NCBI RefSeq assembly: GCF_900142475.1 | Contig: NZ_FRAY01000003.1 | Location: 186,001-250,000, forward strand | Direction of reading: 5' to 3' | DNA length: 64,000 bases | Source: Fibrobacter sp. UWH4 | Lineage (GTDB): Bacteria > Fibrobacterota > Fibrobacteria > Fibrobacterales > Fibrobacteraceae | Shown: one piece after another, positions 42,162 through 57,801 of the stretch | How positions within the stretch are numbered: the first letter of the stretch is position 1 | Layout: the number at the start of each line of letters is the position of its first letter | The notes under the pieces: generated by a model | Databases searched by the model: none | Told to the model about the DNA's origin: nothing | The model's input: the letters and a program-made list of their open reading frames with translations, nothing else | Program-made: the position numbers and the translations under genes

Positions 42162-42319
42162 TATTACTCCTTTAAGCGGATTGGTTTATAATTCGTGTAA
42201 AATATAGTTAGTTCTTCCTCTTTTGGTGAAAAAAGTTTACAAAAAGCTTTTTTCAAATTCTGTTTTTGCGTATTTGTACTAAAAAAAGCGGTTTTTTGAG
42301 GGTGGAAAGGCTTTTTTTT

Positions 42320-42898
42320 ATGTATTTTCGGGGTATGAAATTTGCTTTGCCCATTCTGGCCTTTTTTGTTGTTCAAGCCGTAGCTCTTCCGCAGACGGGA
42401 GTGTTTGTCGATAATCGTGATGGTCACAAGTATCGTACGGTAGTCATTGGCTCCAAGACCTGGATGGCTGAAAATCTAGATTACAAGACGGACGAATCGG
42501 AGTGTTACGACGGCAAAGCTGAGAACTGCAAAAAATACGGCCGTTTATATACTTTTGAGGCTGCGCGCAAGGCTTGTCCGGCTGGTTGGCATTTGCCCGA
42601 AAACGATGAATGGATCCGCTTCAAAAACTTTGTTGAAAATAGCGACGGCAAGGAGGCTGCATGGGTAAGCCTGAAATCGCGCGACAAGTGGGACGGTTCT
42701 GACCGTTACGGCTTTGATGTCATTCCTGCGGGGCGTGCAACAGATGAATTTGTCGGCCTAGGGGAGTCGGCGCATTTTTGGAGTTCAACAGATGAAGATG
42801 GCGATGCCTACGGTTGGCACCTGATGCCTCCAGGTGATTTCGCTCGTGACATAGATCCCGCAACAAATATGTATTCCGTGCGCTGCCTGAGAAATTGA
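42320..42898 (+). CDS. Fib_succ_major (TIGR02145) domain protein
   Basis: About 192 residues. A signal peptide (MKFALPILAFFVVQAVALPQ) is followed by a single Fib_succ_major domain: YRTVVIGSKTWMAENLDYKT, GRLYTFEAARKACPAGWHLPENDEW and a C-terminal SVRCLRN. The domain is named after F. succinogenes, where many secreted proteins carry it; its function is unknown. Four cysteines could form two disulfides. ATG 42320 has GGAAAGG upstream at 12 bases; ATG 42335 is the alternative. The stop overlaps the next start by one base (TGATG), so the two surface proteins are translationally coupled. Confidence 0.88.
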   Translation: MYFRGMKFALPILAFFVVQAVALPQTGVFVDNRDGHKYRTVVIGSKTWMAENLDYKTDESECYDGKAENCKKYGRLYTFEAARKACPAGWHLPENDEWIRFKNFVENSDGKEAAWVSLKSRDKWDGSDRYGFDVIPAGRATDEFVGLGESAHFWSSTDEDGDAYGWHLMPPGDFARDIDPATNMYSVRCLRN

Positions 42899-45780
42899 TG
42901 AAACTTGGTTCGTTTGTTTTATTTATTGCGGGGCTATGCCTGGTGGCGTGCTCCAATTCAGAAAAAATCGTTTCTGACGAACTAGGCGTTCCGGCGGAAA
43001 TTCCACAGGATTCCATCGTGAACAATAGTTTGTCCCAGGACAGCTTGTTAAGAGATAGCCTCCTTAAAGACAGCCTTTTCAAAGATAGTTTGTATAAAGA
43101 CAGTCTAATTCGTTTAGATAGTATTCGCCGAGCAGACAGTCTCGCCCAAATGGAATTGTTGCGAAAAAGCGGGTTGTCCTTGATTGCGTCAAACGGTTTG
43201 TCTATTGAATTGGGAACAAATTCAGCCGAAGCGCGAGTAAACGAACGACCCGCTATGAAGGTTTCGTTTACCTATGACTTTTATGTGTCTAGGCACGAGA
43301 CCACCTGTGCTGAATTTAACGGCTTGATGAAATCAGTGACTGGACTTGCGCTGGATTGCGAAAACGACTCGTTGCCGGTGACAAATGTGACCTATTACGA
43401 CGCAGTCCTTTTTGCGAACGAACGCAGTAAAAGAGAAGGCCTTGATACGGCTTATACCTATGTTTCCAAAAAGATGGATTCGGAAGGCCATTGCGTTAAC
43501 TTAGAGGGGTATGCCTATCATCCGGAAATAGAATCTTTCCATTTGCCGACCGAGGCGGAATGGATGGTTGTCGCCCAAAAGAATTGGTTCTCCGAAAAAT
43601 CATGGACCGCTGAAAATTCCGATTTCAAGCTGCATCCGGTTTGTTCGAAGGCCGAGGACAGTGAAATTTGCGATATGATGGGAAATGCGATGGAATGGGT
43701 CAACGACTGGTTTGGCCTGTTCCGCGATACAACCCTCCAAAATTATGCGGGTGCTCCTGATGGCGGAAAAGTTGCGCAAAGAATTGTCAAGGGCGGAAGT
43801 TTCCGTAGCAAAGCTTCTTCCACTACGTTGTATGCACGGGGGGATATATATTCGGTAACCTCTTCGACAAGAGGAGACTATCTCGGATTTCGTCTTGTGC
43901 GGGGGAGTGTTCCCGATGCATCTTGGATGGGGAGCGATGGCCGTGCGATATCTAGTCGTATTACGCTATTGGCAAATGCCTCGTCGGTGTATTCGTATTC
44001 AAAAACATATAAGGCCAAATTGGCTTTCCGCAATGATGTCTCTGGAAATATCGCCTTTGTGGATTACTCGAACGGGGCCTTGTCTGTTGTAGAAATCCTA
44101 GACACTATCGATGCCTATCATCCGGAGATTTCTCCAGATGGGAACCATGTTGCATTTTGTACAAAGTATGAGGGTGTTGAAGGTAAGTCGGAACTGTATG
44201 TGCGTGACTTAGACGAAAACGGTTCCAACCTTGTAAAGCTTGATGTCGAAAGTGCCGCAATTCCCCGATGGCGTGTACTTGAAAACGGAGATACCGTGAT
44301 TGTGTATGTGACCGATGCAGGAAACAACAAGAGTGAAACGGTATTCCGAGCAACATCGACTTGGCAGGTTCCATTCTCGAACGGGCGATTCGGTGTTCCG
44401 CAGAAACTTTTTGATGGTGCTTACCATGGAGGAATCAGTTTCGATGACCATCTTGCTGTTTCGGGGGCGCGACTTTTGCGCGCTCGCGTTTCGGACCACG
44501 ATACGGTATGGTACAATGGGGAGCAGGCCTGCAATGTATCGCTTTCGCAAGATGGATCGAACCGGACGATGTTCCTGGATTTTGGGAGTTCAACTGGGCG
44601 TGACTTTGTTGGGAAACGTTATGCGACGCACCAACGTTTGTTTATTGCCGATAGTACGGGGCGCTTGGTTCATTCTGTGCAAGCTCCTGCGGGTTTTTCG
44701 TTTGACCATGCGGAATGGGTGGGAAGGTTGGATCTTGCCGTGGCATCTTTAGTCAATTCGAACGGATCACACCGCAAAGTTGTGTTGGTTGATTTGGTCA
44801 ACGACGAAGTTGTTGAACTGGCGGAAGGCGAGGAACTTTGGCATCCGAGCCTGTGGATTTATGAAAGTGGCTTTGAGACAAAGAATTTTGAACTTGATTT
44901 GGATAGTGCCGGAATATATTTTGACAATCCGTCGGATCCTCTGTTGTCTTATAAAATGAACATATTTTGGATCGAAGCGGACTCGATTGAGGTTGTAGCC
45001 CTGGGATCTTCTAGAATGAGTGCTGGTTTTAATTCGAATTCGATAACTTATGGCAAGTCGTTCAATATGGCAACGATTCCGTCGGATATGGATATTTTTA
45101 TGTATCTGGCGGAATTTTATATCCATAAACATTGTCCTCGTCTAAAGGCCCTTGTGGTTGGAATTGATTTTGACTTGTGGTATGATTTGGAAAGCGCGAC
45201 CGTGATGAAAAATATCCTTTCCTATCCTGGATACTTTTATGACTATAATCATCAGTTCTGGGTTGACGGAGGCGTGGACCAAATAAAAATGATTAGCGCC
45301 AAAATAGTCGATGAATCGACTGTTTATCAAGATATGCATCGTAACATGGGTTGGGTCTATGTGGCGGAGAGTCCCTTTGAAGAAAATCCTGAATTCTCCG
45401 GATTTATGTTTGGACGAGATTCAACCTGGAGTGACGATTCGACAACGTATCGGCGCGCCATGAACAATCTTGATTTTATCATTCGAAGCGCAGCGATTAA
45501 GGGCGTCAATGTAGTCGGAGTCATTTTTCCGCAAAGCCCTGAATATAAGAATTCAGGAGCATTTGGAAGACATGGCATGCGACGTTCCCATGCGATGAAG
45601 CTTCTTGAAGAAGTTCAGGAACTTGCCCAAAAATACGGTAACTTTTATTTGCTGGACGAAAATAAGATGGGGGACCATGATTACGCTATGAGCATGGCCT
45701 ACGACTATGACCATCTGAATTATCGGGGGGCCGAAAAAATAACGGCTCGTATCGATTCGGTTCTGAATTCGATAAAATAA
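42898..45780 (+). CDS. TIGR02171-family lipoprotein: sulfatase-modifier-like, propeller and SGNH-like regions
   Basis: A 960-residue lipoprotein (lipobox LVAC). After the cysteine comes a spacer of DSL repeats (QDSLLRDSLLKDSLFKDSL...). Residues 120-350 resemble the formylglycine-generating-enzyme fold (SRHETTCAEFN, LPTEAEWM, MGNAMEWVNDWF, GGSFRS, LGFRLVRG). A TolB-like propeller follows (HPEISPDGNHVAFCT). The last 290 residues look like an SGNH hydrolase: ALGSSRMSAG could hold the serine and YDYDHLNYRGAEKIT the Asp-x-x-His-like end. As I recall, the family is a Fibrobacter paralogous set of about 900-residue proteins of unknown function. Its stop abuts the stop of the convergent regulator gene. 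Confidence 0.85.
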   Translation: MKLGSFVLFIAGLCLVACSNSEKIVSDELGVPAEIPQDSIVNNSLSQDSLLRDSLLKDSLFKDSLYKDSLIRLDSIRRADSLAQMELLRKSGLSLIASNGLSIELGTNSAEARVNERPAMKVSFTYDFYVSRHETTCAEFNGLMKSVTGLALDCENDSLPVTNVTYYDAVLFANERSKREGLDTAYTYVSKKMDSEGHCVNLEGYAYHPEIESFHLPTEAEWMVVAQKNWFSEKSWTAENSDFKLHPVCSKAEDSEICDMMGNAMEWVNDWFGLFRDTTLQNYAGAPDGGKVAQRIVKGGSFRSKASSTTLYARGDIYSVTSSTRGDYLGFRLVRGSVPDASWMGSDGRAISSRITLLANASSVYSYSKTYKAKLAFRNDVSGNIAFVDYSNGALSVVEILDTIDAYHPEISPDGNHVAFCTKYEGVEGKSELYVRDLDENGSNLVKLDVESAAIPRWRVLENGDTVIVYVTDAGNNKSETVFRATSTWQVPFSNGRFGVPQKLFDGAYHGGISFDDHLAVSGARLLRARVSDHDTVWYNGEQACNVSLSQDGSNRTMFLDFGSSTGRDFVGKRYATHQRLFIADSTGRLVHSVQAPAGFSFDHAEWVGRLDLAVASLVNSNGSHRKVVLVDLVNDEVVELAEGEELWHPSLWIYESGFETKNFELDLDSAGIYFDNPSDPLLSYKMNIFWIEADSIEVVALGSSRMSAGFNSNSITYGKSFNMATIPSDMDIFMYLAEFYIHKHCPRLKALVVGIDFDLWYDLESATVMKNILSYPGYFYDYNHQFWVDGGVDQIKMISAKIVDESTVYQDMHRNMGWVYVAESPFEENPEFSGFMFGRDSTWSDDSTTYRRAMNNLDFIIRSAAIKGVNVVGVIFPQSPEYKNSGAFGRHGMRRSHAMKLLEEVQELAQKYGNFYLLDENKMGDHDYAMSMAYDYDHLNYRGAEKITARIDSVLNSIK

Positions 45781-50312: not shown

Positions 50313-50513
50313 GACAGGACCTTTTGCACTATTTTGATTATAAACATCTGTTCACTGCACAAATATATACTATATCTTTGGCTCTGTCAAGTTTTTTTTG
50401 ATTTAGGAGTCATTTTTTATAAGTTCTTGTCACACTTTTTCGCCTTGTTCGACTTGGACAGCTCTTTAAGAGGTTGAATAATTTATATTGATGCAAAAGA
50501 AAGGAGGACGATG

Positions 50514-51128
50514 ATGGATATTCGCAAGAGTAAAGTTGAAAAGAATCGGGAATGGTCGGTGTCTACCCAGAGGCGTCTTGCTGCCGCGTTGGGAGTCTCG
50601 GCGCTGGTTTCGCTGACAGCCTGTGATCCTGTTTCGACTAGTGGAAGCATCTCGGCTCCCGATGAAAATTCCTCCTCGTCGGAGGATGCAATTTCGTCTT
50701 CTGCGGACCAGAAAAACATATCCTCGAGCAGTATTGCTCCTGTAAGTGGAGTGTCCTCGGCTTTTGATGATTTCCCGAAAAGTTCGTCCTCGGTCAAAAT
50801 TGATTCGCTGGAGGTGACCGCTGGCGAAATCGTTCCGCCGCTGGAATCATCCAGTTCTTCGGCTAGGCTTGAGCCACCCATGAGTTCCTCGGTTGAATAT
50901 CCACCCTTGGCGGGGATTCTTCCGCCGGATCTTCCTCCCGTAAAAACGCTCTCGAGTTCCTCGCAGGGCCGTATCGAGTCAAGTGCTGCGACTGCGGGCT
51001 TGTCCTCTTCGTTCAGCGACGTGGTTCCGCAATCCAGTTCATCTGAGCCTGAGCCATTGGCCGGCGATCCGGTTGAAATTGCGCCTCCTCTGGCGGACGT
51101 TATTGAGAATCAGCCTGTCGAAAAATGA
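50514..51128 (+). CDS. Ser/Pro-rich lipoprotein coupled to a radical SAM enzyme
   Basis: A 204-residue lipoprotein with the lipobox LTAC. The mature part is low complexity: five or more SSSS blocks separated by acidic and proline segments, and recurring (E)-x-PPL(A/E) motifs (VPPLESSSS, YPPLAGILPP, APPLADVIE). It has no cysteine except the lipidated one. AGGAGG precedes two ATGs; the second, 50514, is better spaced. Its stop overlaps the start of the radical SAM gene (ATGA). This coupling suggests that the lipoprotein is the substrate of, or a surface partner to, that enzyme. Similar lipoprotein/radical SAM pairs are known from Bacteroidetes, but I see no direct sequence match. Confidence 0.8.
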   Translation: MDIRKSKVEKNREWSVSTQRRLAAALGVSALVSLTACDPVSTSGSISAPDENSSSSEDAISSSADQKNISSSSIAPVSGVSSAFDDFPKSSSSVKIDSLEVTAGEIVPPLESSSSSARLEPPMSSSVEYPPLAGILPPDLPPVKTLSSSSQGRIESSAATAGLSSSFSDVVPQSSSSEPEPLAGDPVEIAPPLADVIENQPVEK

Positions 51129-52240
51129 ATCTCGTCCTCTCTTTAACGGAACGGTGCAACCTGCGTTGCACCTACTGCTATTACAAGGTAAGCCACGAGG
51201 CGCGCAGCCTGGTGATGATGGATGACGTTATGGAGGCGGCAATTCGGCTTGCTTTTGAACGAACCCTGAAGCTTGGCCAGAGGTTTCTGAATATCACTTT
51301 CTTTGGCGGCGAACCGTTACTTTGTATGGGCGCCATCCGCAAGGGCGTGGATTTTGCCAAGAATCTTGTGCGTGAACGGCTTGGCGAGAGCGAATTTCGC
51401 TTGCGCTTTGCGGTGAATACGAACGGAACTTTGCTCGATGATTCCGTTGTCGAATTCCTGGAGCGGGAAAATTTCCGCATCTATCTTTCGCTCGATGGTC
51501 ACGAGGCTCATCACGATGTTTGTCGCAAGCAGGTTGGCGGGGCGGGTTCTTTCAAATTGATAGAACCGCATATTCCAGCACTCCGTAGACTTGATACGGT
51601 TGTTCTTTCAGTCGTGACCCGTGAAAATATGGGCTCGCTTTCGGATGCTGTCCGCTGGATTCAATCCCAGGGGTTCAGGAACATGACGACGGCGGTCGAT
51701 TTCGACGGCAAGTGGACGGGGGAGGAATTCGATGTTCTTGCCCGTGAGTACACAAAGTTGGCTGGATTTTGGGTTGAACTTAAAAAGAATAAGGTTCCTT
51801 TTTACTTGGGAACTGTTCAGGACAAGCTAAAATTTCGATTGACGGGTGCGCGTCACCGTCTTACGAGCTGCCATGTGGCCGAAGGCATTGTCGCTTGCGC
51901 CGCGAACGGAAACCTTTTTCCTTGCACGCGTTTTATCAGCAGCAAAAAAGACGCACCCTACGTCATGGGGAATGTCTTTGACGATCCTGCTCAAATTTGG
52001 AATGGCGCGGTCGCACGGGATATTCTGGATTTCTTCAACCGCGACAAGGAAGATTGTGTAGGTTGCGCTCTGCGTTTCCGGTGCCATGCGCATGAATGTG
52101 CCTGTACGTCTTTTTATTCTACAGGTTCCATTCACGGAGTTTCGCCGGAAGTCTGTACGCACGAACAGATGCTCGCCGCCATTTGCGACGATGCTGTTTG
52201 TGACAATGCTTTTTTTGACAAGGCTCTCGGCGAAAACTAG
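51125..52240 (+). CDS. Radical SAM/SPASM peptide-maturase-like enzyme
   Basis: A 371-residue radical SAM enzyme. Cys11, Cys15 and Cys18 (CNLRCTYC) bind the S-adenosylmethionine cluster, and FFGGEPL is the SAM-binding GGE motif. The C-terminal third is a SPASM-type region for auxiliary clusters: SCHVAEGIVACAANGNLFPC, GNVFDDPAQIWN, then CVGCALRFRCHAHECACTSF and a last cysteine in PEVCTHEQ. SPASM enzymes mostly modify ribosomal peptides or activate sulfatases (anSME). The coupled Ser-rich lipoprotein and the sulfatase-modifier-like domain at 42.9 kb make either use possible. I favour modification of the lipoprotein. The stop overlaps the stop of the convergent NifU-like gene. Confidence 0.88.
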   Translation: MNLVLSLTERCNLRCTYCYYKVSHEARSLVMMDDVMEAAIRLAFERTLKLGQRFLNITFFGGEPLLCMGAIRKGVDFAKNLVRERLGESEFRLRFAVNTNGTLLDDSVVEFLERENFRIYLSLDGHEAHHDVCRKQVGGAGSFKLIEPHIPALRRLDTVVLSVVTRENMGSLSDAVRWIQSQGFRNMTTAVDFDGKWTGEEFDVLAREYTKLAGFWVELKKNKVPFYLGTVQDKLKFRLTGARHRLTSCHVAEGIVACAANGNLFPCTRFISSKKDAPYVMGNVFDDPAQIWNGAVARDILDFFNRDKEDCVGCALRFRCHAHECACTSFYSTGSIHGVSPEVCTHEQMLAAICDDAVCDNAFFDKALGEN

Positions 52241-56455: not shown

Positions 56456-56613
56456 GGTATGAATATAAAATTTGACAGTCATCTGGTTGTCAAAATTGAT
56501 TGTAAAAAGACAAAAATGGTATAATTCCTTAAATTTTCCAGTTTTTTGCCCCATTTTACTATTTTTAGGTTGGTTAGGAGGTTTTTGTGGGATTTTACAA
56601 CTGGAGGTCTTCT

Positions 56614-57801
56614 GTGAAGATTTTTACAAACGTCATTGCGAGCCCTGTAAGGGCGAAGCAATCCATTTTTGGTCGGTTAGTATTTGCTCTTGTCTTTGCG
56701 GCGTTCACTGCGTGTGACAGCGGTTCCAGCAGTACTGACCCTGACCCGATTGCGGAAGTTTCGAGCAGTGGCGGTGGTGATGAAGTCTTCTCCTCGAGTT
56801 CCGTTACGGACAAAGGAACGTCTTCCGGTGGAAGTTCGAGGTCTTCTAGCTCGGCAATTGGCAAAAATAGTAGCTCCTCAGTGAACTCTGGCTCGGATAC
56901 ATCTAGTTCCGATGAGGGTTCTTCTGTCAAATCTTCGTCAAGTAGTCTTGATCCTTGTAAAGAAGAATATGAGGGACGCGAAAAGATTTCTTTAGATGAA
57001 AATCGCCAACGTGTTGAATTTGTTTGTCATGATGGTTTTTGGATTCCCTTGGCTAAATCTAGTTCGTCAGAAATCTCAAGTAGCAGCTACTACGATATGT
57101 CGAAACAGTATAATGAAAATGTCGAGTATGGCGAGTTTACGGACCCTCGCGATGGAAACGTCTACAGAACTATTACGTATGCAGCGAAGCCTTATATATC
57201 GTCGAATATAGTAGCGATGGCAAGTAACCTTAATTATGGCGAGATGGTTCCCGTAGACTCGGCAACGAACGCCGACGGCGTTGTCGAAAAGTTCTGCTAC
57301 AACGATGATCCCTGGTATTGCGAAAACGGTTTCGACGGACTTTATTCCTGGAGCGAAGCGATGAATTTCCACCGGGCGTGCGACACCCTTTTTCTAGGGT
57401 CATCTGCTGATTGTCCGAATGTTTTTGATGAAGACAATTCAGAAAGGCGTCAGCATCAAGGAATATGCCCGGAGGGGTGGCATGTTATGAATGAATTTGA
57501 GTGGCGTAGACTTCCGTCGACTGATTTTGGATGCGGCAAGATGCTTTCGAAACTTTTTATGGGAACGGATCAGGTTGGATTTTCTGCACTGCTTGGAGGC
57601 GGATATTATGTTGGTAACTATGAAGGAATGGGCGAATATGTCCCGTTTTGGACTCCTCAAGAGGTCTCTGATACGTCAAAGTTTGCGGGATCAGTTTTCT
57701 TGACCACTTTTTTGAATGCAGATAAGGTCGAATTTAGACATCGTAGTTACAAACAAAATAAAGCGGCTGTTCGCTGTGTGAAAGATTATATCGTAGAGTA
57801 A
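56614..57801 (+). CDS. Fib_succ_major lipoprotein with Ser-rich linker
   Basis: About 395 residues. GTG 56614 with GGAGGT upstream gives a signal peptide ending FTAC; a second GTG at 56587 with AGGAGG is the alternative. The mature protein has a linker of about 110 residues of S, G and D (SSSGGG, SSRSSSSAIG), then a cysteine-bearing bridge and a C-terminal Fib_succ_major domain (GICPEGWHVMNEFEWRRL...AAVRCVKD). The function of the domain is unknown; secretion and surface display are clear. A CGTCATTGCGAG-type palindrome lies inside the signal-peptide codons (NVIASPVRAKQSI), an odd place for it. Confidence 0.85.
   Translation: MKIFTNVIASPVRAKQSIFGRLVFALVFAAFTACDSGSSSTDPDPIAEVSSSGGGDEVFSSSSVTDKGTSSGGSSRSSSSAIGKNSSSSVNSGSDTSSSDEGSSVKSSSSSLDPCKEEYEGREKISLDENRQRVEFVCHDGFWIPLAKSSSSEISSSSYYDMSKQYNENVEYGEFTDPRDGNVYRTITYAAKPYISSNIVAMASNLNYGEMVPVDSATNADGVVEKFCYNDDPWYCENGFDGLYSWSEAMNFHRACDTLFLGSSADCPNVFDEDNSERRQHQGICPEGWHVMNEFEWRRLPSTDFGCGKMLSKLFMGTDQVGFSALLGGGYYVGNYEGMGEYVPFWTPQEVSDTSKFAGSVFLTTFLNADKVEFRHRSYKQNKAAVRCVKDYIVE
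56631..56664. repeat. CGTCATTGCGAG palindrome inside a coding region
   Basis: CGTCATTGCGAGCCC then GGGCGAAGCAATCC, the inverted form of the element at 40527-40562 and 49673-49700. Here it is translated as part of the signal peptide of the lipoprotein. Confidence 0.75.

Follow-up and report, generated by a model that had tools for sequence, protein, structure and literature searches.

The locus: a lipoprotein gene overlapping a radical SAM/SPASM enzyme gene

Within the window, a 64,000-nucleotide stretch of the Fibrobacter sp. UWH4 genome, a gene for a 204-aa Ser-rich lipoprotein, the presumed substrate (50514-51128), overlaps a gene for a 371-aa radical SAM/SPASM peptide maturase (51125-52240), both on the forward strand. 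As described in the initial annotation, the two genes share an ATGA (51125-51128), in which the TGA of the lipoprotein (51126-51128) and the ATG of the enzyme (51125-51127) have bases in common. The lipoprotein reading frame offers two ATGs (50511 and 50514), of which the second, opening MDIRKSK, is the conserved start, supported by M-x-I-x-K-x-K at the start of 22/22 orthologues in the window's partner class (class A, see below). A Shine-Dalgarno sequence, AGGAGG (50502-50507), lies 6 nt 5' of this ATG, and the intergenic region following ruvA holds a sigma-70-like promoter match (TGGACA-16-AATAAT, 50455-50482) that agrees with the consensus at 10/12 positions and could have arisen by chance. 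The enzyme start is without a clear ribosome-binding site of its own (CCTGTCGAAAAATGA), which fits the expectation for translational coupling.

The lipoprotein, which matched no family in Pfam or NCBIfam profile searches, begins with a conserved leader, MDIRKSKVEKNREWSVSTQRR (50514-50576), identified from the class A alignment and presumed to be the region recognized by the enzyme. This leader precedes the hydrophobic signal segment and the lipobox (LTAC), whose Cys37 (50622-50624) is the only cysteine in the protein; both this feature and the repeated SSSS blocks, of which there are six runs of 4-5 Ser, had been read correctly from the sequence. The (E)xPPL(A/E) motifs noted at the same time also occur, as PPLE, PPLA (twice), and EPLA, but the element kept between genomes is instead Gly-centered, [AS]G[DEIVL][IVPL]. 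In the window lipoprotein, the presumed modification sites containing it are TAGEIVPP (50817-50840), an element shared by most class A partners, PLAGILPPD (50904-50930), and, from the sequence and class A comparison, PLAGDPVEIAPP (51054-51089). The class A orthologues L001 and L003 (enzymes 94% identical) differ in one whole module, which holds PLAGILPPD and has been lost from L003, a near-identical orthologue. Motif copy number thus varies by modules while leader and tail stay constant, and this module-wise variation fits repeated, independent sites.

Elsewhere in the window, proteins encoded at 42266-42898, 42895-45780, and 56587-57801, presumably FISUMP-like and TIGR02171-like, are further Fibrobacter-typical proteins, one with a long Ser-rich linker; none of the three was paired with a radical SAM gene inside the 64-kb window.

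Conserved pairing across Fibrobacter

Searching for the enzyme in 80 genomes of the genus Fibrobacter, and reading the neighbors of the resulting 110 homologous stretches (at least 48% identity), we found an adjacent partner at 108 of 108 assessable homologues. L024 and L025, broken or cut by a contig end, were left out of this count, and a lipoprotein of the same type lies farther upstream of the broken or cut enzyme locus in L024. Thus, the dedicated pairing proposed in the initial annotation is strongly supported, and the orphan enzymes that it had named as counterevidence were not encountered among these homologues. At 75 of the 108 loci, a Ser-rich lipoprotein is encoded directly upstream of the enzyme, mostly overlapping it, with an end-to-start offset of +4 (ATGA) in 47, +1 in 11, and from +8 to 34 bases before the start in the rest. 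This overlap is beyond chance. The other 33 loci have no lipoprotein and instead encode a small Lys/Ala-rich protein (~70-180 aa) 11-40 bp downstream of the enzyme, with neither signal peptide nor lipobox, so that modification of a lipoprotein, as first proposed, is too narrow a description of the family.

Partners were accordingly sorted into class A (22 loci, including the window), class B (53 loci), and class C (the 33 basic proteins). In a maximum-likelihood tree of these 108 enzymes, the classes are perfectly separated (support 100 for A, 83 for B, and 99 for C), and partner type changes only twice on this tree, compared with a mean of 46 changes when labels are shuffled. That partner type follows the enzyme tree indicates that enzyme and partner have travelled together, and the two very probably form one functional unit. 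Most Fibrobacter genomes searched encode one to four copies of the enzyme family.

Several loci depart from the common arrangement. A second pair in the window genome (L002, 1486-1560, class B) has an intact lipoprotein and an enzyme frame that, compared with the intact homologues L044 and L067, shows a one-base shift near codon 12. This may reflect an assembly error or a recent lesion, and the genome may have no intact enzyme of the family besides that of the window. Short class A-type lipoproteins with acidic bodies, apparently in tandem in L021, lie upstream of the enzyme in L021 and L024, and nearly all glycines of their mature part lie at the C-terminal ends (GGVIEMYNGEN and GGLMEND). L066 and L080 have tandem class C units of enzyme plus small basic protein, each with its own, strongly divergent partner and with enzymes ~50% identical to that of the window. 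The Lys/Ala-rich N-termini of class C proteins resemble histone H1-like or nucleoid-type tails, where radical SAM modification would be odd.

Homologues beyond the genus

All five homologues found by a phylum search in other Fibrobacteraceae genera have a partner. A wider search, comprising a scan of the genomes of 84,980 species and two follow-ups, recovered remote homologues in Spirochaetes/Brevinematales (38-39% identity), one Chitinivibrionia genome (34%), and Bacteroidota of the Saprospiraceae/Chitinophagales type (31-33%). Reading the neighbors of 13 such loci revealed a partner at 12, with none seen at the Bacteroidota locus L189. In Spirochaetes, two or three tandem secreted proteins are encoded upstream of the enzyme, while in Chitinivibrionia and Bacteroidota a single partner is encoded downstream, of roughly 440-550 aa in Bacteroidota. 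When aligned, the partners of L180, L182, L197, L185, and L186-L191 appear to have a small domain in common, located C-terminal to the motif. The predicted structure of a Spirochaete partner has a disordered leader (residues 1-50, pLDDT < 50) and a confident C-terminal domain from about residue 61, for which the PDB yielded no convincing match (best Z 5.7, to restriction-endonuclease-like entries; Foldseek E 0.17). Likewise, partners of all classes had no convincing named family in NCBIfam or Pfam, and a literature search on Fibrobacter radical SAM lipoproteins returned no matching paper. In a survey of ribosomally synthesized and post-translationally modified peptides (RiPPs) in anaerobes, the Fibrobacteres strain is listed without any RiPP type (PMC4289311).

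A shared leader and glycine motif among partners

Partner leaders are well conserved within classes. In class A, I3, K5, K7, and W14 are present in 22/22 partners and S15 in 21/22, and class B partners start with MKIEK in 50/50 aligned sequences. Similarly basic leaders, with an aromatic residue and then S, P, or T, occur in other genera and phyla, including MNIKIKHFQKKTPYSS or similar in other Fibrobacteraceae, KETFKPEYS and REKRTPRYT in Spirochaetes, and K.V.P.KR.Y..KYPS in Bacteroidota.

The Gly motif was defined with the sequences already in view, and relatedness within classes inflates the z-scores, which are therefore descriptive. Class A partners contain 47 copies of [AS]G[DEIVL][IVPL] in 2101 aa, against 3.8 expected when each protein is shuffled internally, and class B partners contain 17 in 3381 aa (3.4 expected). 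As a control, 14 other Ser-linker frames of the window genome, read near the first 30 Ser-codon pattern matches and perhaps including a few that arose by chance, contain two in 2336 aa (1.9 expected). Across the patterns tried, which included a broader motif, G[IVLMDE][IVPL], scored in classes A, B, and C, enrichment in class C was only moderate (z 2.5-4.8 depending on the pattern, subject to the same inflation). An unbiased scan of gapped pairs (distances 1-4) placed I-x-x-P, G-I, and G-x-I among the few pairs enriched in both A and C, which is weaker support for the motif than that from the tailored pattern.

Individual partners carry the element in varied contexts. LAGVIADP-type elements lie between the Ser runs of L109, the L111 partner contains TAGDPVFPDD and LAGGITMPLE, and class C elements include FGEILPPWFIRGIPAPE, WGIIVPDW, and GDPINPG. 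Six Spirochaete partners read whole have a Gly...[IV]...Pro element just past the signal peptide (GGDIAYFP(E), LGEPVAMP(K), TGIAVYYP, DGDIAMFP(E), DGDVAMLP, and LGVQVVAP), and the Bacteroidota partners have GLPYRP..GTGLP. When Spirochaete, Chitinivibrionia, and Bacteroidota partners are aligned (15-35% identity to the first row, one close paralogue excepted), only two columns are invariant, the leader Tyr and the motif Pro. The suggestion that modification occurs in the PPL repeats came close, the conserved feature being a Gly-x-(Ile/Val)-x-x-Pro element beside them. In class B, the motif competes with a further conserved element, a C-terminal tail that mostly contains Cys and matches the leader in conservation. 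This tail typically reads C-x-D-P-x(4)-C-x(3)-SMVTTFExxDI (SM[VAP][ST][ST]) and might serve these partners as an additional or even the principal site. In the early-branching class B loci L026, L028, L029, and L096, it is instead G-H-[IV]-x-[VIY]-P, which contains G-x-[IV]-x-x-P.

Relationship of the enzyme to known maturases

The enzyme has the radical SAM cluster and Cys-rich SPASM region ascribed to it initially, and it exceeds the Pfam gathering thresholds for both Radical_SAM (53.7 bits) and SPASM (29 bits). Its cluster motif, CNLRCTYC (C11-X3-C15-X2-C18; 51155-51178), was placed by alignment, and its SPASM region (51869-52186) reads C249-X12-G-X4-C267...C311-X2-C314-X5-C320-X4-C325-X-C327...C344...C354, with T268-R269 following C267. 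These nine cysteines are invariant in 31 family members. The enzyme thus combines CX3CX2C with a seven-Cys SPASM domain, as radical SAM/SPASM maturases do, with CX2CX5CX4CXC in place of the usual CX2CX5CX3C and with C327 and C354 as extra invariant cysteines of the genus family. The C-X-C (C325 and C327) is found in the SPASM core of the Fibrobacter, Spirochaete, Chitinivibrionia, and Bacteroidota enzymes and is not present in the anaerobic sulfatase-maturating enzyme (anSME), QhpD, NlpM, and CteB sequences compared. An AlphaFold model (pLDDT 89.6) has a full barrel, whose first strand starts at residue 2, and a SPASM domain, without a RiPP recognition element (RRE). Its nearest solved structures, all maturases of peptides or proteins, are CteB (5wgg, Z 35.4), anSME (31.9), ChlB (31.9), and TigE (27.0). 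EpeE, a peptide epimerase of the kind (EpeE/YydG) in which an enzyme Cys donates a hydrogen atom and D-residues result, is a weaker match (14.5).

The best NCBIfam match of the window enzyme is PapB (NF047865), over residues 3-336 and at 187.4 bits against a cut-off of 340; other maturase families trail PapB, all far below cut-off. For class B and class C enzymes, as for the remote homologues, the PapB score is 198-226 bits, also below cut-off. With PapB the best match yet far below cut-off in all members tested, these sequence comparisons point to a separate clade near PapB, QhpD, and CteB. Six further places in the window genome match the PapB profile more weakly, including several other radical SAM frames. 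In Bacteroidetes, TIGR04133/TIGR04134 pairs also consist of a lipoprotein gene adjoining a SPASM enzyme gene. Neither model was among the best 25 of 70 enzyme matches in NCBIfam, and the lipoprotein had no NCBIfam match.

Similarity to anSMEs bears on the serine residues, which had been offered in the initial annotation as a possible modification site. An anSME-like oxidation of Ser to formylglycine in the SSSS blocks would agree with the abundance of Ser in class A and B partners and with the structural proximity of anSMEs, which share with the window enzyme the overall fold and the lack of an RRE and, as proposed for it, take proteins destined for export as substrates. However, unpaired proteins encoded in the window genome often contain SSSS runs too, these being a generic linker in Fibrobacter; not even SSS occurs in the L111 partner, and Spirochaete and class C partners are not Ser-rich. 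The Ser runs were rejected as target on these grounds. Nor does the enzyme fall into the anSME clade, the other outcome named at the outset as counterevidence, as it scores 104.5 bits against the anSME cut-off of 349.45 (TIGR03942), is encoded beside a lipoprotein rather than a sulfatase, and has Thr268 in place of the Asp that directly follows the SPASM Cys of anSMEs and is the catalytic base in anSMEcpe. Targeting of Ser is consequently highly improbable.

The same position distinguishes the family from thioether-forming maturases. The residue after SPASM Cys267 is Thr or Ser in Fibrobacter, Thr in Spirochaetes, and Ile or Val in Bacteroidota and Chitinivibrionia, compared with His in CteB, QhpD, and NlpM. 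R269 (PC-T-R-F) shares its alignment column with an Arg in QhpD (LCHRF) and in NlpM (PCHRF), and in PapB, Arg372 is essential and has been implicated in handling its Asp/Glu (PMC9413430). By analogy, R269 may bind an acidic residue near the motif Gly, which is suggestive at most, the link to PapB being judged via QhpD and NlpM only; Bacteroidota enzymes have Gln at this position and a motif, GLPYxP, without an acidic residue. CteB, the SCIFF maturase, and QhpD/PeaB, the quinohemoprotein amine dehydrogenase maturase, resemble the window enzyme in their fold and SPASM region, and QhpD acts on a whole protein subunit encoded next door, much as the window pair is arranged. Both nevertheless form Cys thioethers and have an N-terminal extension and C-H-[RQ]-F rather than C-T-R-F.

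The enzyme could accordingly be a PapB/QhpD-like thioether (ranthipeptide) maturase linking Cys to Asp/Glu. Its true substrates would then be the class B tails that contain Cys, and class A would have drifted or would act differently. The PapB profile (best NCBIfam match in all members tested, 187-226 bits), the SPASM Cys layout, the alignment of R269, and a mature-chain Cys in 52/53 class B partners, many in a C-x-D-P context, are all consistent with such a reaction. Yet no Cys outside the lipobox is present in 15/22 class A and 23/33 class C partners, and the window lipoprotein, with its lipobox Cys only, lacks the PapB-type substrate Cys with Asp/Glu downstream (CX3D). From their sequences, and setting the lipobox Cys aside, a thioether within Cys-free partners is impossible. 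Together with scores far below the PapB cut-off, the missing RRE, the extra C-X-C, the residue after the SPASM Cys, and a lipoprotein as partner, this makes a thioether maturase unlikely.

A proposed maturase-substrate pair

We propose that the two genes encode a dedicated maturase-substrate pair, in which the lipoprotein is made beside the enzyme, and we infer from the patterns above that the partner is the substrate, as well as the mode of leader recognition, site, timing, and chemistry. Lacking the usual RRE, the enzyme would recognize its partner by the charged leader ahead of the signal peptide. While the chain is still in the cytoplasm and not yet exported, several Gly-[D/E/I/V]-[I/V/P]-x-x-Pro elements that lie between its Ser-rich spacers would undergo radical SAM chemistry. 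Hydrogen abstraction at a motif residue would probably alter an aliphatic or acidic residue rather than Ser, whose oxidation is unlikely, with epimerization, ring closure (e.g., to a cyclopropane), desaturation, or a C-C or C-O link as candidate reactions, and the change would need no substrate Cys. In classes A and B, export and signal peptidase II would perhaps remove the leader together with the signal peptide, as lipoprotein biology suggests, making a dedicated protease unnecessary and leaving the modified chain on display at the envelope. These export steps would be inapplicable to class C partners, which lack a signal peptide and lipobox. We put the probability of the whole model, a maturase-substrate pair with leader recognition and the Gly motif as site, at roughly 0.55.

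A precedent for chemistry of this sort is TvgB, which makes cyclopropylglycine in the TVGG repeats of its substrate, likewise a repeated short Gly motif with a beta-branched residue and no Cys (PMC9062424), although the resemblance is one of motif only. TigE is a structural neighbor of the window enzyme at 18% identity. Unlike the window pair, TvgB and TigE serve peptide precursors within larger clusters, and the order TVGG differs from G-x-[IV]-x-x-P.

Alternatively, the enzyme may act on another substrate altogether, with the lipoprotein as a merely co-regulated partner, such as an anchor, scaffold, or regulator. The existence of several partner architectures without common sequence, among them the roughly 440-550 aa protein of Bacteroidota, is compatible with this explanation. 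Against it, the constant neighbor at lipoprotein, Spirochaete, and Bacteroidota loci has a basic leader and a Gly/Pro motif, and partner type co-varies with the enzyme clade; we consider a separate substrate distinctly improbable.

Returning to the maturase-substrate pair, its general kind, a radical SAM maturase with a dedicated precursor, is known, and what is described here is a conserved maturase-partner family, in a clade named by no curated model that we found, with a reaction that is probably Cys-independent. More tentatively, the system might represent an undescribed Cys- and Ser-independent radical modification of a surface lipoprotein at several Gly-motif sites, guided by a leader that stands before the signal peptide and is lost in lipoprotein processing, in a clade that also serves small basic proteins and spans four bacterial groups. 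If this is true, radical SAM peptide maturation would reach beyond small secreted peptides to surface lipoproteins of full length, their leader being removed by a signal peptidase, and the two-gene system of enzyme and multi-site substrate would offer a compact test bed for a Cys-free reaction. With one to four copies in most genomes searched, the family may shape the envelope of Fibrobacter, which are important fiber-degrading gut bacteria.
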